Assembly: GCF_001427105.1 (NCBI RefSeq)
Contig: NZ_LMGI01000001.1
Location: 62,001-126,000, forward strand
Direction: 5' to 3'
Length of the DNA stretch: 64,000 nt
Source of the DNA: Sphingopyxis sp. Root154
GTDB lineage: Bacteria > Pseudomonadota > Alphaproteobacteria > Sphingomonadales > Sphingomonadaceae
Shown here: one piece after another, positions 28,896 through 39,565 of the stretch
How the letters are laid out: every line of letters starts with the position of its first letter
Position numbering within the stretch: the stretch's first letter is position 1
The notes under the pieces: generated by a model
The model's database searches: none
The model's input: only the letters and a program-made list of their open reading frames with translations
Told to the model about the DNA's origin: nothing
Translations under genes and position numbers: made by a program

Positions 28896-29477
28896 ATGCG
28901 GATCGCGATCATCGACACCAGCACGACGCGCGCGGCGATCATCTCCGATGGTTTACGCGAGGCGGGGCTCGACGATCTGGTGCTGATCGATCCGGCGGGT
29001 GCGCTGGTCGCGCAAATCGAAGCGGCGAAACCCGAAGTCATATTGGTCAATCTTGAGAATCCCAGCCGCGACCTGCTCGAGGATTTCTTCGCTATGTCGC
29101 GCGCTCTGGCCCGGCCGATCGCGATGTTCGTCGACCAGAGCGATACCGAGGCAACCGGCGCCGCGATCGACGCGGGCGTGTCGGCCTATGTCGTCGACGG
29201 CCTGTCGAAGCAACGGATCAAGCCCGTCATCGATCTCGCGGTGCGACGTTTCCAAGCCTTTTCGCGGCTCCAGCGCGAACTCGACGAAGCCAAAAATGCG
29301 CTGGCGGAGCGCACGGCGATCGATCGCGCCAAGGCGATCCTGATGAAACGCCGCGCAATCGATGAGCCCGCCGCCTACGCGCTTCTGCGGGGCCAGGCGA
29401 TGCGCACCAACCGCCGGATCGCCGAGATCGCCGAAGCGATCGTCACGAGCGACGCGCTCCTGGGAGACATGGAATGA
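28896..29477 (+). CDS. nasT: ANTAR-domain nitrate antiterminator NasT
   Basis: The 193-residue protein has an N-terminal receiver-like domain (MRIAIIDTSTTRAAIISDGL, PEVILVNLENPSRD, AGVSAYVVDGLSKQRI) and a C-terminal ANTAR RNA-binding domain (AERTAIDRAKAILMKRRAID, AAYALLRGQAMRTNRRIAEI). In this receiver the usual phosphoacceptor Asp position reads NLENPS, so it is not a phosphorylated receiver, in keeping with NasT. Known NasT proteins bind two hexaloop hairpins in nitrate-operon leaders and allow read-through of a terminator; such a leader lies at 30768-30918. Its stop overlaps the nasS start by 4 bases. Confidence 0.93.
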   Translation: MRIAIIDTSTTRAAIISDGLREAGLDDLVLIDPAGALVAQIEAAKPEVILVNLENPSRDLLEDFFAMSRALARPIAMFVDQSDTEATGAAIDAGVSAYVVDGLSKQRIKPVIDLAVRRFQAFSRLQRELDEAKNALAERTAIDRAKAILMKRRAIDEPAAYALLRGQAMRTNRRIAEIAEAIVTSDALLGDME

Positions 29478-30685
29478 GCGCCGAGACATTTCGTATCGGT
29501 TTCCTGCCGCTGGTCGACGCCGCGCTGCCGATCCTCGCGCACGAACTGGGCTTTGCGGCGCGGGAAGGGATCAGCATCGAACTGGTCCGCGACATGACGT
29601 GGGCGACGGTGCGCGACCGGCTGCTCTATGGCCACACCGACGCGGCGCATATGATCGCGCCGCTCGCGATCGCCACCGCGCTCGGCCGCGACCGGCCGGC
29701 GGTGCCGATGGCGGTGCCTTTCGTGCTCGGGCTCAACGGCAATGCGGTGACCTTTTCGACCCAGCTCGCAAGGGATGTGGGGCTTGGCGAAACGCTCGGC
29801 GATCCGGCGACCATCGGCGCGGCGCTGCGGCGCGTGGCGGCAGCGCGAAAAATAGCGGGAAGGCCTCTGCGCTTTGGCGTCGTGCATCGCTACTCCAGCC
29901 ATAATTATATGCTTCGCTATTGGCTCGCGGGCGTGGGCATCCGCCCCGACACCCATGTTGACATCGTCGTCACCAGCCCGCCCTTTGCCGCCGATGCGCT
30001 GGCGGCGGGCGAAGTCGATGGCATCTGCGTCGGCGAGCCGTGGAATTCGATCGCGGTCGAACGCGGCGTCGGCCATATCGCGCTCGCCACGGCACAAATA
30101 TGGCGCCGCGGCGTCGAAAAAGTCCTCGCGATGCGCGAGGCCATCGCCGATGAACGGCGCGATGCAGTCGAGGCGTTGCTGCGTGCGCTCCACGCCGCAG
30201 CCGCCCATTTCGTCGAGCCCGGCACCGCCGAGGAAAGCGCCGACATATTGGCGCGGTCCGAATATCTCGGCGCACCGCGCGATGCGATACTGCGCGCGAT
30301 CACCGACCGTATCCGCCTCGTTCCCGGCGGCGAACCGATCCACTATCCCGATTTCATGTTCCAGCATCGCGAAGCCGCCAACTTCCCATGGCGCAGCCAG
30401 GCCGCGTGGCTCTATTCGCAGATGCTCCGCTGGGACGGTGTGACCTATTCGGCGACCGACGCCGCCACGGCAGGCGCGGTGTTCCGCCCCGACATTTATC
30501 GCGCCGCATTGGCCGGGTCCGGCGCGCCCCTTCCGGGCGCCAGTTCAAAGCTCGAAGGCGGCATCGGCGAACCCCTCGGCGCCGGGTCGGTTCAGGGCCG
30601 CCTTGTCCTTGGCAGCGACCGATTTTTCGATGGCCGCGCATTCGATCCCGACGACATTCAGGGCTATCTTGCTGATCTCAAATAG
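29474..30685 (+). CDS. nasS: Cytosolic nitrate/nitrite sensor NasS
   Basis: The 403-residue protein is a NrtA/CmpA-type nitrate-binding protein: FRIGFLPLVDAALPILAHEL at the start, GYTDAAH-like YGHTDAAHMIAPLAIATALG, RYSSHNYMLRYWLAGVGI, and EVDGICVGEPWNSIAVERG. There is no signal peptide or lipobox, unlike the ABC transporter subunits, which identifies it as the cytosolic sensor. Known NasS proteins sequester NasT until nitrate or nitrite binds. The ATG overlaps the nasT stop (ATGA). The gene is followed by the leader region of the nitrate operon. Confidence 0.9.
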   Translation: MSAETFRIGFLPLVDAALPILAHELGFAAREGISIELVRDMTWATVRDRLLYGHTDAAHMIAPLAIATALGRDRPAVPMAVPFVLGLNGNAVTFSTQLARDVGLGETLGDPATIGAALRRVAAARKIAGRPLRFGVVHRYSSHNYMLRYWLAGVGIRPDTHVDIVVTSPPFAADALAAGEVDGICVGEPWNSIAVERGVGHIALATAQIWRRGVEKVLAMREAIADERRDAVEALLRALHAAAAHFVEPGTAEESADILARSEYLGAPRDAILRAITDRIRLVPGGEPIHYPDFMFQHREAANFPWRSQAAWLYSQMLRWDGVTYSATDAATAGAVFRPDIYRAALAGSGAPLPGASSKLEGGIGEPLGAGSVQGRLVLGSDRFFDGRAFDPDDIQGYLADLK

Positions 30686-30689
30686 ATTT

Positions 30690-30767
30690 TTCGACGTGTC
30701 GAATTTTATGCTGCACCTGCGAAATAACCGGTTGCGCCGATAGGGCGAATCAGGCAGTCTTGACGCA
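30690..30767 (+). promoter_or_regulatory. AT-rich segment between nasS and the leader hairpins, weak hairpin
   Basis: A short stem TTCGA/TCGAA (30690-30703) followed by TTTT lies immediately after nasS and could end that transcript weakly. The rest should contain the operon promoter. TTGACG at 30760-30765 resembles a -35 box but would place the start site inside the first hairpin. No convincing sigma-54 promoter was seen, so the promoter is unassigned. Confidence 0.35.
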
Positions 30768-30918
30768 CTCGGCAAGGATGCCGGGGCAGGATAAAGCGGC
30801 TACGGCTCCAACGACGGGGCCGGTCCGCGCGGCAGGTGGGGAGCCTTTTCCCCGCACTCCAACAGGCAATGAAGCCGTCAGGATGCGCCCGCGTGGCCGC
30901 CGTCCTGGCGGCTTTTTT
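30768..30918 (+). ncRNA. NasT-responsive leader: two ANTAR hexaloop hairpins and terminator
   Basis: Hairpin P1 is CTCGGC-AAGGAT-GCCGGG (30768-30785) with a six-base loop. Hairpin P2 is CGGCTCC-AACGAC-GGGGCCG (30803-30822), also with a six-base loop. Both loops have A at position 1 and G at position 4, the known ANTAR recognition signature. An intrinsic terminator follows: GCCGTCAGGA at 30874-30883 pairs with TCCTGGCGGC at 30903-30912, then six T (30913-30918). The transporter ATG is 28 bases after the T-run. The arrangement matches NasR/NasT-controlled attenuators, so NasT binding should favour read-through into the nitrate operon. The translated frame over this region (30760-30945) is therefore not the transporter's N-terminus. 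Confidence 0.88.
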
Positions 30919-30945
30919 ATTGCCCGTCGCACAAGGGGACGGACG

Positions 30946-32181
30946 ATGACGGACATGATGAACGGCGCCAGCGCCGGGGCAAAATCGAACTTCTGGACCA
31001 GCGGGCACTGGCCAACGCTGCTCGCGGCCTTTCTCTATTTCGACCTCGCCTTCATGGTGTGGGTCATCCTCGGGCCGCTGGCGCCCGCAATTTCCGAAGA
31101 TCTGGGGCTCACCCCCGCGCAAAAGGGGTTGATGGTCGCGGTGCCGACATTGGCAGGCGCGTTGCTCCGCGTCGTCAACGGCCTTCTCGTCGACCGGATC
31201 GGTCCGAAGCGGGCGGGCGCGATCAGCCAGCTGATCGTCATCGCCGGACTGTTCACCGCATGGACCATGGGGGTTTCAAGTTTTGCCGGCACGCTGGCGC
31301 TGGGCATCATCCTCGGCTTCGCCGGCGCGAGCTTTGCGATCGCGCTGCCGCTCGCGAGCCGCTGGTATCCGCCCGAACATCAGGGCAAGGCGATGGGGCT
31401 CGCCGGCATGGGCAATTCAGGCGTTGTGCTCGCGGCGCTCTTCGCACCCAGTGTCGCCAAACTATTCGGCTGGAACGCCGTACTCGGCCTCGCGTGCATC
31501 CCGCTGACCATCGTCTTCTTCGTCTATCTCGCGATGGCGAAGGACGCGCCGAACGCGCCGGCACCGAAGAAGCTGGCCCATTATTTCGAGCCGCTCAAGA
31601 CCGCCGACGCCTGGTGGCTGATGGCCTTTTACGCAGTGACCTTCGGCGGCTTCGTCGGACTCGCGGCGTCGCTGCCGATCTACTTCACCGACCAGTTCCA
31701 CCTGACCCCGGTGATGGCAGGTTATTGCACTGCGGGCTGCGTCTTCGCCGGATCGCTCGTGCGTCCGATGGGCGGCGCGCTCGCCGACCGGATCGGCGGG
31801 GTGAAAGCGCTGATGATGGTCTTCGTCGTCGCGGCGCTGGCGATTGCCGGGGTGCCCCAGGCGAACACGCTGCCTGCCGCGCTCGGCCTATTCGTGATCG
31901 CGATGCTCGCGCTCGGCACCGGGAATGGCTCGGTCTTCCAACTCGTGCCGCAGCGCTTTTCAGCCGAAATCGGCGTGATGACCGGGCTCGTAGGTATGGC
32001 TGGCGGGATCGGCGGCTTCTACCTCGCCTCCTCGCTCGGCTTCGCCAAGCAATGGGCGGGCACCTTCGCCCCTGGCTTCTATATCTTCGCCGGACTTGCG
32101 GTGGTCGCGCTCGTCGCGTTGCTCTTCGTCAAGGGCCAGTGGCGCCGGACCTGGGGCGCCGCCGAAGGCGTGCGGATCTGA
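30946..32181 (+). CDS. Nitrate/nitrite MFS transporter (NarK/NasA type)
   Basis: The 411-residue inner-membrane protein belongs to the nitrate-nitrite porter family. The family signature in helix 5 is visible as GFAGASFAIALPLASRWYPP, and the second signature as GTGNGSVFQLVPQRFS near residue 325. Conserved nitrate-binding Arg regions are in LLRVVNGLLVDRIGPKR and LVRPMGGALADRIGG. I start at ATG 30946, which has AGGGGA upstream. In-frame ATGs at 30955 and 30958 are alternatives. It is the first structural gene after the NasT leader, so its expression depends on antitermination. Confidence 0.93.
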   Translation: MTDMMNGASAGAKSNFWTSGHWPTLLAAFLYFDLAFMVWVILGPLAPAISEDLGLTPAQKGLMVAVPTLAGALLRVVNGLLVDRIGPKRAGAISQLIVIAGLFTAWTMGVSSFAGTLALGIILGFAGASFAIALPLASRWYPPEHQGKAMGLAGMGNSGVVLAALFAPSVAKLFGWNAVLGLACIPLTIVFFVYLAMAKDAPNAPAPKKLAHYFEPLKTADAWWLMAFYAVTFGGFVGLAASLPIYFTDQFHLTPVMAGYCTAGCVFAGSLVRPMGGALADRIGGVKALMMVFVVAALAIAGVPQANTLPAALGLFVIAMLALGTGNGSVFQLVPQRFSAEIGVMTGLVGMAGGIGGFYLASSLGFAKQWAGTFAPGFYIFAGLAVVALVALLFVKGQWRRTWGAAEGVRI

Positions 32182-32184
32182 TCG

Positions 32185-33387
32185 ATGACTTGCACGCTCA
32201 TCTTCCTGGCCACGCTCGCGCCCGCCGGATTGGCGCAAGCACAGGATATCGTCCTGACGCCGATCGGCGAGGCGCGCCTGCGCTATGAGAGCGTCGATCA
32301 GGACAGTCTGCCCACCGATGCCGAGGCGCTGACGCTGCGCGTCCGCGCCGGGGTCGAGGCCAAGGCGGGCAACTGGTCTGCGCTCGTCGAGGGGCAAGGC
32401 AATCTGGCAATCGTCGATGACTATTTCGACGGACTCTACGGAGCGGCCACCCGTCCGCTGATCGCCGACCCCGACAATATCGCCCTCACCCGCGCGCAAA
32501 TTCGCTATGCGTCGCCCGCCTTCGCGCTCACCGCGGGGCGGCAGCGGCTCGGCTTCGACGACGAGCGTTTCGTCGGCAGCGTCGGCTTTCGCCAGAACGG
32601 CCAGAGCTTCGACGCCGTGCGCGCCGAAGTCACGCTCGTAAAGGGCGTGAAGGCTGACGTCGCCTATGCGTGGAGCGTGCGGACGATCTGGGGCATCGAC
32701 GGCACGGGCGCGCGGCAACAGGCGGTGTCGGGAGATAATCTCTTCGGCAACCTCAGCGCGCAGACCCCGATCGGCAAGCTCGCCACCTTTGCCTATCTCG
32801 TCGATCAGGACGAGGCGGCGATGCAAGGTTTTCGCATATCGAGCCAAAGCTATGGCGCTCGCCTCGACGGGTCGCAGGCCGTCGGCAAGGCGAAGATCGC
32901 TTACCAGCTGAGCTACGCGCGCCAGTCTGACTGGCACCGCAATCCGAACAATTACGGCGCCGACTATTATCTCGCCGACGTAGCTGTCGATCTTGGAGGC
33001 CCCCGGGTCGGCGTCGGGTACGAGATACTCGGCGCCGACGACGGGGCCGCGCTCACCAGCTTCCAGACCCCGCTCGCGACGGGTTTCAAATTCCAGGGCT
33101 GGACCGACAAATTCCTCACCACCCCGCCCGACGGCGTGCGCGACCTGTATGCAAGCGTGGGCTGGAACTGGAAGGCTGTCGGACCGCTCAAGGCCGTGAC
33201 GCTGCAAGCCGCGTACCACGACTATCGCAGCGACCGCGCGAGCCGCTCCTATGGCGACGAAATCAATCTGCTCGCGAGCGCGAAGCTCGGCAAGGTCACC
33301 GCGGCCGCCCGCTACGCGCATTACAAGGCCGACACTTTCGCCACCGATACCGACAAATTCTGGCTGCAACTGGACTGGATGCTTTGA
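32185..33387 (+). CDS. Alginate-export-type outer-membrane porin of the nitrate operon
   Basis: The 400-residue protein has a signal peptide ending GLAQAQ and an AlgE-like (alginate_exp) beta-barrel. Strand-rich segments include RLRYESVDQDSLPTDAEALT, FALTAGRQRLGFDDERFVGS and the closing WLQLDWML, whose pattern suits recognition by the barrel-assembly machinery. Alternating hydrophobic residues run through it. Placement between the nitrate transporter and nirB, with a 4-base ATGA overlap to nirB, implies a nitrate or nitrite porin rather than alginate export. Similar porins recur in proteobacterial nitrate-assimilation operons. Substrate specificity is inference. Confidence 0.82.
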   Translation: MTCTLIFLATLAPAGLAQAQDIVLTPIGEARLRYESVDQDSLPTDAEALTLRVRAGVEAKAGNWSALVEGQGNLAIVDDYFDGLYGAATRPLIADPDNIALTRAQIRYASPAFALTAGRQRLGFDDERFVGSVGFRQNGQSFDAVRAEVTLVKGVKADVAYAWSVRTIWGIDGTGARQQAVSGDNLFGNLSAQTPIGKLATFAYLVDQDEAAMQGFRISSQSYGARLDGSQAVGKAKIAYQLSYARQSDWHRNPNNYGADYYLADVAVDLGGPRVGVGYEILGADDGAALTSFQTPLATGFKFQGWTDKFLTTPPDGVRDLYASVGWNWKAVGPLKAVTLQAAYHDYRSDRASRSYGDEINLLASAKLGKVTAAARYAHYKADTFATDTDKFWLQLDWML

Positions 33388-35864
33388 TGAAACACCACCC
33401 CCTCAAGCCCGAGGGCGACACGCGCGACCATCTGGTCGTGATCGGCAACGGCATGGCCGGCTGCCGCGCGGTCGAGGAGCTGCTCGCGCGCGATGCTGCC
33501 CGCTACCGCGTGACGATTTTCGGCGCCGAGCCGCGGGTCAATTACAACCGCATCATGCTGTCCCCCGTGCTCGCGGGCGAGAAGAGCTTCGACGACATCG
33601 TCATCAACGACGCCGAATGGTATGCGGCGAACGGCATTGCGCTGGTCGCAGGCGACCCGGTGGTTGCAATCGACCGCGGTACAAAGACGGTGACGACGCG
33701 CGGCGGCGAGACCGAAAGCTATGACCGGCTGCTGATCGCGACCGGCTCCGATCCCTTCATCATCCCGGTGCCGGGCAAGGACCTGCCCGGGGTGATCGCG
33801 TTTCGCGACATGGACGATGTCGACACAATGCTCGCGGCCGCGGATGCGGGCGGCGATGCGGTCGTCATCGGCGGCGGGCTGCTCGGGCTCGAAGCCGCGC
33901 ACGGGCTTTCGCTCCGCGGGATGAAGGTCACCGTCATCCACCTGATGCCGACCTTGATGGAACGCCAGCTCGACGAGGCGGCGGGCTGGCTGCTCAAGCA
34001 GGCATTGGAAGGCCGCGGCCAGACGATCTTGACCGGCGCCGACACCGCCGAGATCGTGGGCGACGGCAAGGTCGAGGGGGTAAAACTCAAGGACGGGACG
34101 CTAATTCCCGCCAGCCTCGTCGTGATGGCGGTCGGCATCCGTCCCTCGGTTGCGCTCGCGCGCGACGCGGGCCTCGCGGTCGGGCGCGGCATCCAGGTCG
34201 ACGACCATATGGTGACGAGCGATCCCGCCGTGCTCGCGGTCGGCGAATGCGTCGAGCATGACGGGCAGGTCTATGGCCTCGTCGCGCCGCTGTGGGACAT
34301 GTGCCGTAGCCTCGCCGACGGGCTCGTCGAACAGCCGACGGGCTATCGCGGATCGGTGACCTCGACCAAGCTCAAGGTATCGGGAATCGACGTGTTTTCC
34401 GCGGGCGATTTTTCGGGCGGCGACGGGTGCGAAGACATCGTGCTGCGCGACGCGAGCCGCGGTGTCTACAAGCGCGTGATCGTCAAGGACGACCGGATTG
34501 TCGGCGCGGTGCTCTATGGCGATACCGCCGACGGCAGCTGGTATTTCGACCTGCTCAAGAAGCAGGAGGATGTCTCCGAGCTTCGCGACCTGCTGATCTT
34601 CGGCCAGTCCTTCGCCTCAGGAGGGGGCGCGGCGGACCCTAAGGCGGCCGTTGCGGCGCTCTCGGACGATGCTGAGATCTGCGGCTGCAACGGCGTCACT
34701 AAAGGCCAGGTCGTCTCGTGCATCGCCAAGGGCGCGCGCAGCCTCGATGCGGTACGCGGCACCTGCAAGGCGTCGGCGAGCTGCGGCAGCTGCACCGGAC
34801 TCGTCGAGAATCTCCTCGCGCTGACGCTCGGCGACGAGGTGCAGGCGGGCCCGAAGACGATGTGCAAATGCACGAGCTTCGGCCACGACGACGTTCGCCG
34901 CGAGATCGTCGCGCAGGGCATGCGCTCGATCCCCGAGGTGATGCAAAAGCTGCACTGGACGACCCCCGACGGTTGTTCGTCTTGCCGCCCGGCGCTCAAT
35001 TATTATCTGCTCTGCGCGCTGCCCTGCGACTATGTCGACGACCAGCAGAGCCGCTTCGTCAACGAGCGGATGCACGCCAACATCCAGAAGGACGGCACCT
35101 ATTCGGTCGTGCCGCGCATGTGGGGCGGGCTCACCAACCCGACCGAGTTGCGCGCGATCGCCGATGTCGTCGAGAAGTTCAATGCGCCGATGGTCAAGGT
35201 GACCGGCGGCCAGCGACTCGACATCTTCGGGATCAGGAAAGAGGATCTTCCCGCGGTCTGGGCCGACCTCAATGCCGCCGGGATGGTGTCAGGGCACGCT
35301 TATGGCAAATCGCTGCGCACGGTGAAGACCTGCGTCGGGTCCGAATGGTGCCGCTTCGGCACGCAGGATTCGACCGGGCTCGGCGTCAAGATCGAGCGGA
35401 TGAGCTGGGGCAGCTGGATGCCGCACAAGTTCAAGATCGCGGTGTCGGGCTGCCCACGCAACTGCGCCGAGGCGACGATCAAGGATTTCGGCATCGTCTG
35501 CGTTGACAGCGGTTACGAGCTGCACGTCGGGGGGAATGGCGGCATGCACGTCCGCGTGACCGACCTGCTCTGCAAGGTCGCGACCGAGCAGGAGGCGATG
35601 GACTATTGCGCCGCCTTCATCCAGCTCTACCGCGAGGAAGCCCGCTATCTCGAGCGCACCGCGCCGTGGATCGAGCGCGTCGGGCTGGCACATATCACCG
35701 CGCGGATCGTCGACGATCCGGCAGGCCGCGAGGCGCTGCGCGCACGCTTCCTCTATTCGCAAAGCTTTTCGCAGGACGATCCGTGGGCGCAGCGCGCCGA
35801 GGGTGCCGAGGCCGAGCATCATGCGCCGATGGCGCGCTTTACCCCCCAGGAGGAACTCGCATGA
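33384..35864 (+). CDS. nirB: Assimilatory nitrite reductase [NAD(P)H] large subunit
   Basis: The 826-residue cytosolic enzyme reduces nitrite to ammonium. The N-terminal flavoprotein part has VVIGNGMAGCRAVEELLA, LLIATGSDPFIIPVPG and a second dinucleotide fold VVIGGGLLGLEAAHGLSLRG. A BFD-like [2Fe-2S] region near residues 430-485 has CGCNGVTKGQVVSC and CKASASCGSCTG, and a second Cys-rich one follows with WTTPDGCSSCRPALNYYL. The sulfite/nitrite reductase half has the siroheme-[4Fe-4S] ligands TCVGSEWCRFGTQDST and SGCPRNCAEATIKDFG. It is coupled to the porin gene upstream and to nirD downstream by ATGA overlaps. It needs siroheme, and cobA lies in the same operon. Confidence 0.96.
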   Translation: MMKHHPLKPEGDTRDHLVVIGNGMAGCRAVEELLARDAARYRVTIFGAEPRVNYNRIMLSPVLAGEKSFDDIVINDAEWYAANGIALVAGDPVVAIDRGTKTVTTRGGETESYDRLLIATGSDPFIIPVPGKDLPGVIAFRDMDDVDTMLAAADAGGDAVVIGGGLLGLEAAHGLSLRGMKVTVIHLMPTLMERQLDEAAGWLLKQALEGRGQTILTGADTAEIVGDGKVEGVKLKDGTLIPASLVVMAVGIRPSVALARDAGLAVGRGIQVDDHMVTSDPAVLAVGECVEHDGQVYGLVAPLWDMCRSLADGLVEQPTGYRGSVTSTKLKVSGIDVFSAGDFSGGDGCEDIVLRDASRGVYKRVIVKDDRIVGAVLYGDTADGSWYFDLLKKQEDVSELRDLLIFGQSFASGGGAADPKAAVAALSDDAEICGCNGVTKGQVVSCIAKGARSLDAVRGTCKASASCGSCTGLVENLLALTLGDEVQAGPKTMCKCTSFGHDDVRREIVAQGMRSIPEVMQKLHWTTPDGCSSCRPALNYYLLCALPCDYVDDQQSRFVNERMHANIQKDGTYSVVPRMWGGLTNPTELRAIADVVEKFNAPMVKVTGGQRLDIFGIRKEDLPAVWADLNAAGMVSGHAYGKSLRTVKTCVGSEWCRFGTQDSTGLGVKIERMSWGSWMPHKFKIAVSGCPRNCAEATIKDFGIVCVDSGYELHVGGNGGMHVRVTDLLCKVATEQEAMDYCAAFIQLYREEARYLERTAPWIERVGLAHITARIVDDPAGREALRARFLYSQSFSQDDPWAQRAEGAEAEHHAPMARFTPQEELA

Positions 35865-36199
35865 CCGCAGAATGGCTCGACATCGGCTGGGTCGACCAGA
35901 TTCCAGTACGCGGCAGCCGCACGGTACAGGTCGAAGGCGGCGACGACATTGCGGTCTTCCGCACCGCCGAGGGCAAGGTGTTCGCGCTGCTCGACCGTTG
36001 CCCGCACAAGCACGGTCGGCTGAGCCAGGGCATCGTCCACGGCGGCGCGGTCGCCTGCCCGCTCCACAATTGGCGGATTTCGCTGTCGACCGGCGAAGCG
36101 CTCGGCGAGGACAAGGGCTGCACCCCTACCGTGCCCGTGAAGATCGACGGCGGCCGCGTCCTCATCTGCCGCGCGAGCACTTTGAAGGCCGCGGCCTGA
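35861..36199 (+). CDS. nirD: Nitrite reductase small subunit, Rieske-type
   Basis: The 112-residue partner of NirB has a Rieske-like fold. The [2Fe-2S] ligands appear complete: CPHKHG near residue 47 and CPLHNW near 66. This differs from enterobacterial NirD, which lacks the cluster ligands, so this version may carry electrons. ATG 35861 follows CCAGGAGGAACTCGC, a strong ribosome binding site, and overlaps the nirB stop. Its own stop shares one base with the nasA start. Confidence 0.93.
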   Translation: MTAEWLDIGWVDQIPVRGSRTVQVEGGDDIAVFRTAEGKVFALLDRCPHKHGRLSQGIVHGGAVACPLHNWRISLSTGEALGEDKGCTPTVPVKIDGGRVLICRASTLKAAA

Positions 36200-38796
36200 T
36201 GAACGCAGCCGTCCGCACCACCTGCGCCTATTGCGGCGTTGGCTGCGGTATCCGCGCGACGGTGACGGGCGAACGGGCGGTCGAAATCGCGGGCGATCCC
36301 GACCATCCTGCCAACAGGGGCAGGCTCTGCTCGAAGGGCACGCATCTGGGCGAAACCGTCGGGCTCGAAGGCCGCCTGCTCGCGCCCATGATCGGAAGGA
36401 AGCGCGCCAACTGGGGCAAGGCGCTCGACCTCGTCGCAAAGCGGTTCAAGGAAACCATCGCGCGCCACGGCCCGAACAGCGTCGCCTTCTACGTCTCGGG
36501 GCAATTGCTCACCGAGGATTATTATGTCGCCAACAAGCTGATGAAAGGCTTCATCGGCACCGCGAATATCGACACCAACTCGCGGCTCTGCATGTCGAGC
36601 GCAGTCTCGGGCCACACGCGCGCGTTCGGCGAAGATATCGTCCCCGCGACCTATAACGACCTCGATGCCGCCGACCTGATCATCCTCGTCGGATCGAACA
36701 CCGCCTGGTGCCATCCGATCGTCTATCAACGCATCCGCGCACGCTGCGAGGCCGGGGCAAAGCTTGTCGTCATCGACCCGCGTCGCACCGAGACTGCCGA
36801 AGAGGCCGATCTGCATCTCGCGATCCGCCCCGGCAGCGACGTCGCGTTGATGAACGGCCTGCTGCAATGGTGCCGCGAGGCGGGCGCGCTCGACGACGGC
36901 TATCTCGCCGCGCATGTCGCGGTGCCCGACAGCTTCTGGGATGAACTTGGAGAGGGGAATGACCTGTGGTCGGTGGCGCGCGCGTGCGACGTGCCCGTCG
37001 CCGACCTCAGGCGTTTCTATGAACTGTTCGCCGCAACCCCGCGCACGGTGACGATGTTCAGCCAGGGGATCAACCAGTCGACGTCGGGCACCGACCAAGT
37101 GAACGCGATAACCAACCTCCATCTCGCGACCGGACGCATCGGCAAGCCCGGAGCGGCGCCCTTCTCGATCACAGGCCAGCCCAACGCGATGGGCGGGCGC
37201 GAGGTCGGCGGGCTCGCCTCGACCCTCGCCGCGCATATGGATTTCGCGCCCGAGAACCGCGACCGCGTCCAGCGTTTCTGGGCCGCGCCGGCGATGGCGG
37301 AAAAGCCGGGCCTGAAGGCAGTCGACCTGTTCCGCGCGGTCGGCGAGGGGCGCATCAAGGCGCTGTGGGTGATGGCGACCAACCCCGCGGTGTCGATGCC
37401 CGACGCGGGCCGCGTGCGCGAAGCCCTCGCCGCCTGCCCATTCGTCGTCGTCAGCGACGTGATCGAAAAGACCGACACCGGCGCCTTCGCGCATGTCCGC
37501 CTGCCCGCCGCTGCGTGGGGCGAAAAGGATGGCACGGTCACCAACAGCGACCGCACGATCAGCCGCCAGCGCGCGCTGTTTCCGCTGCCCGGCGAGGCGA
37601 TGCCCGACTGGTGGATCGTCAAGGAGGTCGCGCGGCGCATGGGCTGGAAGACCGCCTTCACCTATGACCGTCCGGCCGACATCTGGCGCGAGCATTGCCG
37701 CCTGTCGACCTATGACAATGACGGCGCGCGCCTCTTCGCGCTCCCCGGCGCCGCACAGGGCGGCAATGCCGCCTATGATGACATCTTGCCCTTTCGCTGG
37801 GGCGGCGAGCACGTCTTTGCCGATGGCACCTATCCGACCGGCGACGGCCGCGCGCGGCTGGTATCCATCGCCCAAAAGCCCCTACCCGAACCGCTTACGA
37901 AATGGCCGTTGACGCTCAACACCGGCCGCTATCGCGATCAGTGGCATACGATGACGCGCACGGGCCTCGCGCCCAAGCTCGCGCGCCACCGCGAGGAGCC
38001 GCTGGTCGAGGTGCATCCCGATGACGCCGCGCGGCTCGGGCTTGCCGACGGCGGACTCGCGCGCGTCGAAACCCCGCAGGGCGATAGCGTCTATCGCACC
38101 GTCGTTTCGGAAGGCCAGCGCCCCGGCGAGCTGTTCGTCCCGATCCACTGGACCGACCGAACCTCGAGCGGCGGTCGCACCGGGCTCCTCCCGCGCCCGC
38201 TCGTCGACCCCGTGTCGGGGCAGCCGGGCTTCAAACGGACCCCCGCCGCGATCGCGCCGGTCGCGACGAAATGGCGGGGTTTCCTGTTGCTCGCGAACGA
38301 ACTCGACGAACGGCCCGCCTGCCTGTGGGCGACCCGCGTCGCGGTGCCGGCGGGGGTGCTCTGGGAACTCGCCGGCAACGGCGACCTCAAGCGCATCGAA
38401 GCGCTGCTCCCGCGCGGAGAACGGATCGAGGCGCACGACAGGGCGCGCGGGACACGCCGCGTCGCGGTCGTCTCCGGAGGGCGCCTCGCAGGCGCGCTGT
38501 TCGTTACGGAGAGCGGTGAATTGCCGCCGCGGGACTGGCTGATCGCACAACTCGGCGCCCCCGAAATCGCACCCACGCTGCTCGCCGGCCGGGCACCGGG
38601 CGTCCAGGCCGACCGCGGCCCGATCATTTGCGTCTGCTTCGATATCGGATTGAAGACGATCGCCGCGGCCATCCGCGACCAGCAACTCGCCGACGTCGCC
38701 GCAATCGGCGGTGCGATCAGCGCGGGAACCAACTGCGGATCGTGCCGCCCGGCGCTCGCCCGCATATTGGCAGAGGAGGCGAGCGATGCAACCTGA
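36199..38796 (+). CDS. nasA: Assimilatory nitrate reductase catalytic subunit
   Basis: The 865-residue cytosolic molybdoenzyme reduces nitrate to nitrite. I start at ATG 36199; the long upstream frame overprints nirD. N-terminal [4Fe-4S] ligands are TCAYCGVGCGIRA and a fourth Cys in NRGRLCSKGTHLG. Molybdopterin-binding segments include YVSGQLLTEDYYVANKLMKG, TNSRLCMSSAVSGHTRAFGE, MFSQGINQSTSGTDQVNAI and the C-terminal TLNTGRYRDQWHTMTRTG. A C-terminal BFD-like [2Fe-2S] domain is present (IICVCFDIGLKTIAAAIRDQ and GTNCGSCRPALARIL), as in Klebsiella NasA. No separate NADH-dependent NasB/NasC subunit is present in the operon. Confidence 0.95.
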   Translation: MNAAVRTTCAYCGVGCGIRATVTGERAVEIAGDPDHPANRGRLCSKGTHLGETVGLEGRLLAPMIGRKRANWGKALDLVAKRFKETIARHGPNSVAFYVSGQLLTEDYYVANKLMKGFIGTANIDTNSRLCMSSAVSGHTRAFGEDIVPATYNDLDAADLIILVGSNTAWCHPIVYQRIRARCEAGAKLVVIDPRRTETAEEADLHLAIRPGSDVALMNGLLQWCREAGALDDGYLAAHVAVPDSFWDELGEGNDLWSVARACDVPVADLRRFYELFAATPRTVTMFSQGINQSTSGTDQVNAITNLHLATGRIGKPGAAPFSITGQPNAMGGREVGGLASTLAAHMDFAPENRDRVQRFWAAPAMAEKPGLKAVDLFRAVGEGRIKALWVMATNPAVSMPDAGRVREALAACPFVVVSDVIEKTDTGAFAHVRLPAAAWGEKDGTVTNSDRTISRQRALFPLPGEAMPDWWIVKEVARRMGWKTAFTYDRPADIWREHCRLSTYDNDGARLFALPGAAQGGNAAYDDILPFRWGGEHVFADGTYPTGDGRARLVSIAQKPLPEPLTKWPLTLNTGRYRDQWHTMTRTGLAPKLARHREEPLVEVHPDDAARLGLADGGLARVETPQGDSVYRTVVSEGQRPGELFVPIHWTDRTSSGGRTGLLPRPLVDPVSGQPGFKRTPAAIAPVATKWRGFLLLANELDERPACLWATRVAVPAGVLWELAGNGDLKRIEALLPRGERIEAHDRARGTRRVAVVSGGRLAGALFVTESGELPPRDWLIAQLGAPEIAPTLLAGRAPGVQADRGPIICVCFDIGLKTIAAAIRDQQLADVAAIGGAISAGTNCGSCRPALARILAEEASDAT

Positions 38797-39565
38797 CGAT
38801 TTTCCGCCAGGCACCGTCTGGCTCGTGGGTGCCGGGCCCGGCGATCCCGAGCTTTTGACGCACAAGGCGATCCGGCTCATCGAACACGCCGACATCATAT
38901 TCCATGACGCCCTCGTCGGCCCTGCAATTCTCGATCTCATCCCGGCGGGGGTCGAACGCGTCAGCGTCGGCAAGCGTTCGGGTCGCCATTCGAGGAATCA
39001 GCAGGAGATAGACGCTCTGCTGGTGGCCGCCGCCGCGGCAGGCAAGCGCGTCGTTCGACTGAAAGGCGGCGATCCTTCGGTATTCGGCCGTTCGACCGAG
39101 GAAATCGCCGCCTTGCACATGGCCGGCTATCCGGTTTTCGTCTGCCCCGGCATTACCGCGGCGAGCGCCGTCGCAGCGTCGGCCAAAATATCACTCTCGC
39201 TCCGCGACGTCGCGCGCGACGTCCGCTTTGTCACCGCACACAGCCGCCGCGGCGCGGCGCTCGATCTCGACTGGCACTCGCTCGCCCGCTGTGGATCGAC
39301 CCTTGCCTTCTATATGGGGCGCGACGCGGGGCCTGAAATCGCCCGCGGTCTCATCGGCGCAGGCATGCCGGTGGATATGCCTGTCATGATCGCCTGCAAC
39401 GTCAGCCGCGCCGACGAACAGCGGCTCATGACGCGCCTCGACCTGCTCGGCCTTGCTACGCGCGCGCTGGCGAACGACGCGCCGACGCTTATCCTAATCG
39501 GTGCTGCGGTTATGCCTGCCATGTCGGCAAAGATTCTTGCGACTGAGGCGGACAGAACGATATAG
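38786..39565 (+). CDS. cobA: Uroporphyrinogen-III C-methyltransferase
   Basis: The 259-residue enzyme methylates uroporphyrinogen III to precorrin-2, the first step to siroheme for NirB. Signature motifs are VWLVGAGPGDPELLTHKAIR, DIIFHDALVG, VVRLKGGDPSVFGRSTEE, and VCPGITAASAVAASAKISLS. No oxidase/ferrochelatase (CysG-type N-terminal) domain is fused, so those steps must be encoded elsewhere. ATG 38786, with AGGAGGC upstream, overlaps the nasA end by 11 bases. It is the last gene of the nitrate operon and the last clearly core gene before the accessory patch. Confidence 0.95.
   Translation: MQPDDFPPGTVWLVGAGPGDPELLTHKAIRLIEHADIIFHDALVGPAILDLIPAGVERVSVGKRSGRHSRNQQEIDALLVAAAAAGKRVVRLKGGDPSVFGRSTEEIAALHMAGYPVFVCPGITAASAVAASAKISLSLRDVARDVRFVTAHSRRGAALDLDWHSLARCGSTLAFYMGRDAGPEIARGLIGAGMPVDMPVMIACNVSRADEQRLMTRLDLLGLATRALANDAPTLILIGAAVMPAMSAKILATEADRTI

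Follow-up and report, generated by a model that had tools for sequence, protein, structure and literature searches.

A leader with three hexaloop-like hairpins and a spacer hairpin ahead of the nitrate operon of Sphingopyxis sp. Root154, very probably a variant NasT-type antitermination switch

Introduction

This locus raises the question of what the 260-nt gap between nasS and narK does and, should it act as an RNA switch, which of its hairpins the regulator NasT would read. Our window is the whole stretch of DNA that was analysed (64,000 nt), and it corresponds to positions 62001-126000 of contig C1 in the 4.73-Mb genome of Sphingopyxis sp. Root154. A sequence-only reading had proposed for this gap a NasT-type ANTAR antitermination leader in which two canonical hexaloop hairpins, P1 and P2 (here called hairpins A and B), stand ahead of a terminator.

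Comparative sets and sources

Matches to NasS were found in 38 of the 60 genomes of the genus set, in 49 of 149 for the family, and, at E<=1e-70, in 40 of 246 for the order and 47 of 385 for the class. Each of these sets includes our own genome, the sets overlap, and genus, family, and class are groups as drawn by the search tool. The loci compared were the best 30 matches per search plus 20 further regions, which cover all 39 places in the genus and part of the matches in the family, order, and class. Leaders were taken downstream of nasS. Alignment of 40 distinct leaders, own row included, comprised 33 from the window genus and seven from a sister genus; the other seven of 47 leaders were left out as identical over the 160-nt core. 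A covariance model was built from 29 leaders, 22 of these from the window genus. For the literature, we compared excerpts of PMC3369931, PMC3795266, PMC5424462, PMC6759348, PMC7496416, PMC8164766, and PMC8934654.

Gene context

The sequence-only reading had nasT and nasS immediately upstream of the leader, and both are confirmed there as open reading frames with Pfam matches (Table 1), nasT being two genes upstream of narK. A genome-wide search for ANTAR domains in our own genome returned a single match, namely the nasT product. The nasS product is probably the nitrate/nitrite sensor and partner of NasT, as judged by analogy to Paracoccus NasS (PMC3795266, in excerpt), after which it is named. 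All genes of the cluster (nasT, nasS, narK, porin, nirB, a nirD-like gene, nitrate reductase, and a tetrapyrrole methylase that is SUMT-like by position) run in one direction. From its synteny with nirB and the nitrate reductase genes, NarK probably has nitrate/nitrite as its substrate. Among the other products, the porin (32185-33387) is of the alginate-export type and is again a neighbour of narK or nirB in several relatives, and the molybdopterin nitrate reductase (36193-38796) has a BFD-like [2Fe-2S] domain at its C-terminus.

Table 1. Coordinates of the leader elements and surrounding genes in the window
Feature	Positions	Strand	Description
nasT	28896-29477	+	Pfam ANTAR, 63.5 bits, E 1.5e-17; regulator with receiver-like N-terminal part and ANTAR RNA-binding part
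nasS	29474-30685	+	Open reading frame; Pfam NMT1_2, E 1.1e-63; start overlaps nasT end
Possible leader promoter	30732-30760	+	TTGCGC-17 nt-CAGTCT, by eye, weak; 40-row genus alignment shows partial conservation of the region
Hairpin A (P1)	30768-30785	+	CUCGGC[AAGGAU]GCCGGG, read directly
A-B linker	30786-30795	+	GATAA-like motif, conserved in the 40-leader alignment
Hairpin B (P2)	30796-30828	+	Core 30803-30822, CGGCUCC[AACGAC]GGGGCCG; outer stem GCGG/CCGC
Spacer hairpin M	30831-30860	+	Between B and C; core 91.7% paired, two-sided changes in 4/6 pairs
Hairpin C	30865-30876	+	GGC[AAUGAA]GCC hexaloop; 3' half opens the terminator 5' arm
Intrinsic terminator T	30872-30918	+	12-bp outer stem, arms 30872-30883 / 30903-30914; six T at 30913-30918
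narK	30946-32181	+	Pfam MFS_1; MFS transporter; first gene behind the switch
Operon remainder	32185-39565	+	Porin, nirB, nirD-like Rieske protein, nitrate reductase, tetrapyrrole methylase

Architecture of the leader

Two hexaloop hairpins with loops AAGGAT and AACGAC, and a terminator with six T before the nitrate transporter, had been read from the bases, and all are present (A, the core of B, and T in Table 1). The gap from P2 to the terminator, put at about 50 bases, counts 49 nt, and the intermediate structure guessed to lie within it takes shape as a covarying spacer hairpin, M, followed by a third hexaloop hairpin, C. Elements that had gone unmentioned also include the outer extension of P2, in which 30796-30799 pairs with 30825-30828, and the spacer hairpin itself.

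The leader folds better than any of 200 shuffles (z -4.5). In the 40-leader alignment, 96.1% of the 1370 cells that enter the covariation count are paired, and 17 pairs are changed on both sides versus 6.5 in shuffles, with none of 500 shuffles reaching 17; sliding the partners by 1 to 3 columns left only 40-59% paired. By element, pairing and two-sided changes come to 99.2% and three of six pairs for hairpin A, 95.7% and four of seven for the core of B, 86.7% and all four for its outer stem, and 99.8% and two of 12 for the T helix.

As for the loops, A1 and G4 are kept together in all 40 leaders for loop B and likewise for loop C, which always reads AAYGAA. In loop A, both occur in 32 of 40 leaders (A1 in 33, G4 in 39), with a purine at position 1 throughout; the exceptions are G at position 1 in seven leaders and A at position 4 in one. 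The C-G pair that closes the loop is found in 39 leaders for A and in all 40 for both B and C. Moreover, bases 1 and 6 of loop A can pair in 33/33 window-genus leaders and in 2/7 from the sister genus, compared to 1/33 for loop B and 0/33 for loop C by the same test in the window genus. Fold prediction of the window leader alone gives loop A closed to a tetraloop. Hairpin A may thus be a relaxed ANTAR-like hexaloop or, by way of an A-U closing pair, a tetraloop, and of the two hexaloops that had been termed canonical, P1 fits the word too loosely. Between A and B, the linker of 10 nt lies within the EutV range; by eye, its GATAA / GAGATA-like motif is also seen in some leaders of other genera.

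Hairpins with a purine at position 1, G4, and a C-G closure recur upstream of C. At least two such hexaloops are found in 38 of 39 window-genus leaders versus 6/780 two-base-block shuffles. Among leaders that have C, the counts are 6/7 in the sister genus (block shuffles 0/140), 8/42 of those listed for the family (5/840), and 4/10 of those listed for the class (1/200). The 42 listed family leaders break down into 10 with no upstream hexaloop, 24 with one, and eight with two. An extra loop ahead of B is hence usual in the window genus and the sister genus, and found only now and then in other groups.

Hairpin C and the terminator

The last two loop bases and the 3' arm of C are at the same time the first five bases of the 5' arm of T, and since the end of C is the start of that arm, C and T are mutually exclusive. 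Predicted energies are -29.0 kcal/mol for T and -2.8 kcal/mol for C alone (-4.2 kcal/mol with flanks); C being so much weaker than T, it would need NasT to hold.

A terminator-anchored search found C in 40/40 genus, 7/7 sister, 39/48 listed family, and 6/26 listed class leaders (dinucleotide shuffles: 3/800, 0/140, 6/960, and 2/520, respectively), though it picked the wrong hairpin for L055, L079, and L088 (family) and L099 and L104 (class). Its nine family leaders without C include L057, L074, and L076, where a motif-based search does find one. By this second search, C is present in 39/39 genus, 7/7 sister, 42/48 listed family, and 10/26 listed class leaders, and was not found at the other 16 of the 26 listed class loci, although two of these (L106 and L117) do have one; its absence there counts against the switch favoured below. 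Many of the distant class-level matches that lack C may not be true NasS.

The stem of C varies with compensation between groups (GUGGC/GCCGC, CAGC/GCUG, CCGGC/GCCGG, and UGGC/GCCA). In most genus leaders it has 3 bp, and these three pairs are invariant in the 40-leader alignment, with GCC also held by the terminator. Because the C pairs never vary there, support for C at the genus level comes from invariance and not from covariation, a point against the switch favoured below.

Separately, a small open reading frame (30869-30949) has its ATG inside loop C and looks signal-peptide-like by eye.

Spacer hairpin M and the distance between B and C

In the window, the core of B and hairpin C lie 42 nt apart, most of which is folded into the spacer, and formation of M together with the outer B stem would leave 12 nt unpaired. 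With the nearest upstream purine-1 hexaloop taken as B (a loop that has G1 in L102, L110, and L119 of the class and L037, L041, L057, and L070 of the family), the distance from its core stem to the C stem is 37-44 nt in the window genus (39 leaders), 29-42 nt in the sister genus (six), 9-85 nt with a mean of 32.8 in listed family leaders (32), and 3-9 nt in listed class leaders (10, with A1 in the upstream loop of seven). When this stretch was folded with B held, the mean number of unpaired nucleotides was 14.1 for the genus, 6.8 for the sister genus, and 8.6 for the family, figures that are rough, as the outer B stem can swallow the spacer (L079 and L081). Either the extended outer stem of B or a hairpin of its own absorbs the remainder. 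In the sister genus, four leaders (L032, L083, L084, and L085) have 8-bp spacer hairpins of three different sequences, none like that of the window.

Natural EutV linkers between the two hairpins measure 5-12 nt, and 14 nt drastically reduced induction (PMC3369931, in excerpt), while 20 added nucleotides abolished antitermination (PMC8934654, in excerpt). An actinobacterial survey of ANTAR targets, also seen in excerpt, accepted 2-25 nt (PMC8164766). The distance of 42 nt in the window (37-44 nt in the genus) is outside the 5-12 nt of EutV-type leaders, and for this reason we do not file the leader as EutV-type. As a raw distance, it exceeds both the EutV tolerance and the range of the survey, which counts against a leader read by NasT through B and C.

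Occurrence of the leader

In our own genome, the covariance model gives one clear site (E 9e-38); the runner-up (E 0.16) is terminator T read on the opposite strand, and three more hits have E above 4. Across the genus, it hits 38 of 60 genomes, own included, and these are the same 38 that have NasS. One of the genus genomes (G014) has two nasS genes about 42 kb apart (L012 and L068), each with its own leader, and both RNAs were found.

At E<=0.01, the family search returned 20 places in 19 of 149 genomes. Eight of these adjoin nasS, eight are at other nitrate genes, and four look false, with none of six nas-cluster proteins of the window in the locus (L136, L140, L144, and L146); as L136 scores E 3e-7, the E-values of the model are unreliable near 1e-6. 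Leaders away from nasS stand before nirB (L131, L132, L141, and L145), before narK (L133 and L134), before a nasS-like binding-protein gene (L139), and between porin and nasA (L142). Loops like A, B, and C are all seen in L131-L134, just two in L139, L141, and L145, and three in L142, where the first stem has 3 bp. In the genome of L134, about 63 kb separate this leader from the nasS match. These dispersed leaders of relatives form a regulon of which our own genome shows one site.

Rfam gave no ANTAR-type match at the leader. This is uninformative, because nine other nasS-downstream leader loci, seven of them with short linkers, were unmatched too.

Flanking sequences

A scan of the leader for sigma-70 promoters found none, which counts against the switch favoured below. 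The genus alignment shows a conserved TGCGAAATAA...TTGCG...GAATCAGGCAG ahead of hairpin A, within 30700-30760, and GAATC recurs in leaders of other genera. This conserved stretch is possibly a promoter or an activator site.

On the other side, GGCAAU (30865-30870), the 5' part of C, is complementary to AUUGCC (30919-30924) behind the T run, and could pair with it as a helix X. In the window genus, own pairing is predicted at -9.1 kcal/mol versus -6.4 kcal/mol with the sequences of other clades, with a shuffle p<=0.05 in 13 of 18 distinct but near-identical rows. For the clade having GUGGC in the C stem, these values are -12.1 and -9.0 kcal/mol, with 12 of 25 rows at p<=0.05. Own pairing was weaker than swapped pairing in the rows from the sister genus (6), other family members (17), and the class (10). 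Helix X is thus clade-limited, and may represent a refolding of the read-through transcript.

NasT protein

Among PDB sequences, NasT matches EutV (6wsh/6ww6, E 6e-16) and NasR (4akk, E 2e-7), and also Rv1626 and AmiR. We numbered EutV as the chain index minus 2, by which all eight residues named in the excerpt of PMC8934654 fit their letters. The NasT equivalents (with EutV residues in parentheses) are then R139 (R142), T140 (K143), R144 (K147), Y161 (Y164), M169 (M172), R170 (N173), N172 (R175), and R174 (R177). Here, Met169 is kept across all 94 loci with a NasT match, and position 161 is Tyr in 31/31 genus, 7/7 sister, 36/37 listed family, and 14/19 listed class rows.

The replacement of EutV K143 by T140 in the window NasT counts against the antitermination switch favoured below. 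Lysine is found at this position in 11/11 short-linker rows, 3/32 long-linker rows from L032 on, and 0/31 window-genus rows, with the linker lengths of L057 and L093 uncertain in this count. A correlation between residue 140 and linker length was considered and dropped, since the tree shows about two changes of each trait and the association is not significant.

The phospho-acceptor position in the receiver-like part of NasT (residue 52) is Asn, as it is in 31/31 genus, 7/7 sister, and 9/37 listed family rows, with Asp in 18/19 listed class rows. Judged from these sequences, there is an apparent lineage-specific loss of the receiver Asp. A link between Asn52 and the second upstream hexaloop was unsupported on the tree.

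Proposed mechanism

Several properties of ANTAR leaders are found together in this one. It holds at least two A1/G4 hexaloops (B and C in 40/40 leaders, A in 32/40) with C-G closure, its terminator is overlapped by the second hairpin of the pair (C, and not P2), and the genome encodes a cognate ANTAR protein with a probable nitrate sensor gene beside nasT. On account of the gene context, the conservation, the covariation, and the co-occurrence of the RNA with NasS, we assign the leader to the NasT type. The kind of switch in the sequence-only reading is very probably right; its anatomy needs one correction, the addition of hairpin C.

We consider it very probable that the leader is a nitrate-responsive antitermination switch, in which NasT binds B, perhaps also A, captures C, and blocks T. 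From the structures and their overlap, we infer how NasT binding, its release by NasS, the order of events, and the parts of M and A would fit together. With nitrate lacking, NasS would hold NasT and T would form, keeping narK and the downstream genes off. Nitrate or nitrite would free NasT from NasS, by analogy with Paracoccus (PMC3795266, in excerpt). For recruitment to the nascent RNA, the freed NasT would then bind hexaloop B, the probable recruitment hairpin, and perhaps A as well, and would next capture hexaloop C as this leaves the polymerase. Held by NasT, C would occupy 30872-30876, where the 5' arm of T starts, and the polymerase would read through. Spacer hairpin M would fold most of the long B-C distance and so bring B and C near enough for one NasT assembly.

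Alternative readings

Foremost among the alternatives, we lean slightly towards the same mechanism with NasT reading B and C only, where A would be a stem that stabilises the 5' end, a pause site, or a folding guide. This fits with the relaxed A1/G4 of loop A (32/40) and with its pairable bases 1 and 6 in all 33 genus leaders, such that purine 1 is perhaps kept for pairing and not for NasT. Many family leaders do without A (among the 42 listed with C, 10 have no upstream hexaloop and 24 have one), and the textbook motif requires just two hexaloops. Against this, hairpin A retains G4 and the C-G closing pair in 39/40 leaders each, its loop is closable in only two of seven sister-genus leaders, and its linker to B has a EutV-like 10 nt. 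Hexaloops like A are also seen where relatives have the leader before nirB or narK and not next to nasS (L131-L134). Moreover, in the excerpt of PMC8934654, G4 stacks on Tyr164 of EutV and A1 has no specific contact, to which a relaxed base 1 would conform.

Alternatively, all three loops would serve NasT, which as a relay or higher oligomer would be recruited by A and B and handed over to C across M in place of a short linker, with NasT changed accordingly at its K143 equivalent (about two changes per trait on the tree). We regard this three-loop version as rather unlikely, and it was marked down, and the version with B and C alone marked up, because loop A is closable in 33/33 genus leaders.

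The model of the sequence-only reading, with A and B as a dual ANTAR hairpin that controls, from a distance, a terminator with which it shares no bases, is very unlikely. While the A-B spacing of 10 nt is EutV-like and both hairpins covary, P1 and P2 alone cannot be a mutually exclusive antiterminator, since neither overlaps the terminator. In contrast, C does overlap it, has A1/G4 invariant across two genera, and matches the position of the terminator-overlapping hairpin in other genera and in other families of the class.

Slightly less probable still is that A is a palindromic DNA operator, with the transcript holding just B, C, and T. Hairpin A is indeed near the possible promoter position, but its second pair is a U-G wobble in 32/40 leaders and C-G in seven, which keeps the RNA pair and breaks the DNA palindrome.

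We give scarcely any credence to a constitutive nasTS terminator or a leader-peptide attenuator that works through the small open reading frame (MKPSGCARVAAVLAAFLLPVAQGDGR), which overlaps the narK start by ATGA and has the same ending in 14/40 genus leaders, but whose ATG lies 76 to 79 nt from the narK start, depending on the genus leader, and is replaced by ACG in 7/7 sister-genus rows, so that a peptide from the loop-C ATG was rejected; conserved A1/G4 loops would also be needless for a plain terminator.

Comparison with known systems

For Paracoccus denitrificans, the excerpts of PMC3795266 and PMC5424462 report that, with nitrate present, NasT binds the RNA of the nasA leader, that hairpin HI is required for nitrate induction, and that HII is suggested to aid attenuation. 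As in that system, nasTS here lie directly upstream of the nitrate operon, with a non-coding leader that contains hairpins; the hexaloops of nasA are given in PMC3795266 as data not shown. Hairpins of the Bradyrhizobium leader are given in a supplementary figure of their source.

With the Klebsiella NasR/nasF leader, where nitrate-dependent read-through of a terminator is described, the likeness extends to the A1, G4, and C-G-closed hexaloops, the closing C-G being part of the NasR SELEX motif. Unlike here, the Klebsiella regulator is a one-component NIT-ANTAR protein that reads a two-hairpin motif, P1P2 (PMC7496416, in excerpt). As for EutV and eutP of Enterococcus faecalis, the order is the one proposed here, with a recruitment hairpin first and then an antitermination hairpin overlapping the terminator (PMC3369931 and PMC8934654, in excerpt). 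However, EutV is kinase-driven and has a 5-12 nt linker, whereas the present leader has 42 nt with a spacer hairpin and an extra loop in front, and its NasT has Asn for the receiver Asp.

Short-linker leaders downstream of nasS-like genes in the class (L097, L099, L101-L105, L107, L110, and L119) have an upstream hexaloop and a terminator-overlapping C, as in the window, but only 3-9 nt between hexaloops and no spacer hairpin. The nearest upstream loop is G1 in three of these 10 (L102, L110, and L119), and further upstream hexaloops occur in four.

We found no description of the spacer-hairpin and three-loop layout in the excerpts of open literature on ANTAR leaders, though a prior description elsewhere is possible, and no experiments on this leader in the literature searched under one genus name. 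The system is an architectural variant of a kind already established.

Implications

The published picture of ANTAR leaders, as given in the excerpt of PMC8934654, is one of a strict short linker between two hexaloop hairpins, with no account of the way in which a single dimer would serve the two. In the present leader, the loops persist at a distance of about 42 nt, and the hairpin in the gap turns over in sequence while a fold is maintained; the layout either meets the spacing rule by way of M or breaks it. For the nitrate switch itself, the data yield predictions loop by loop.
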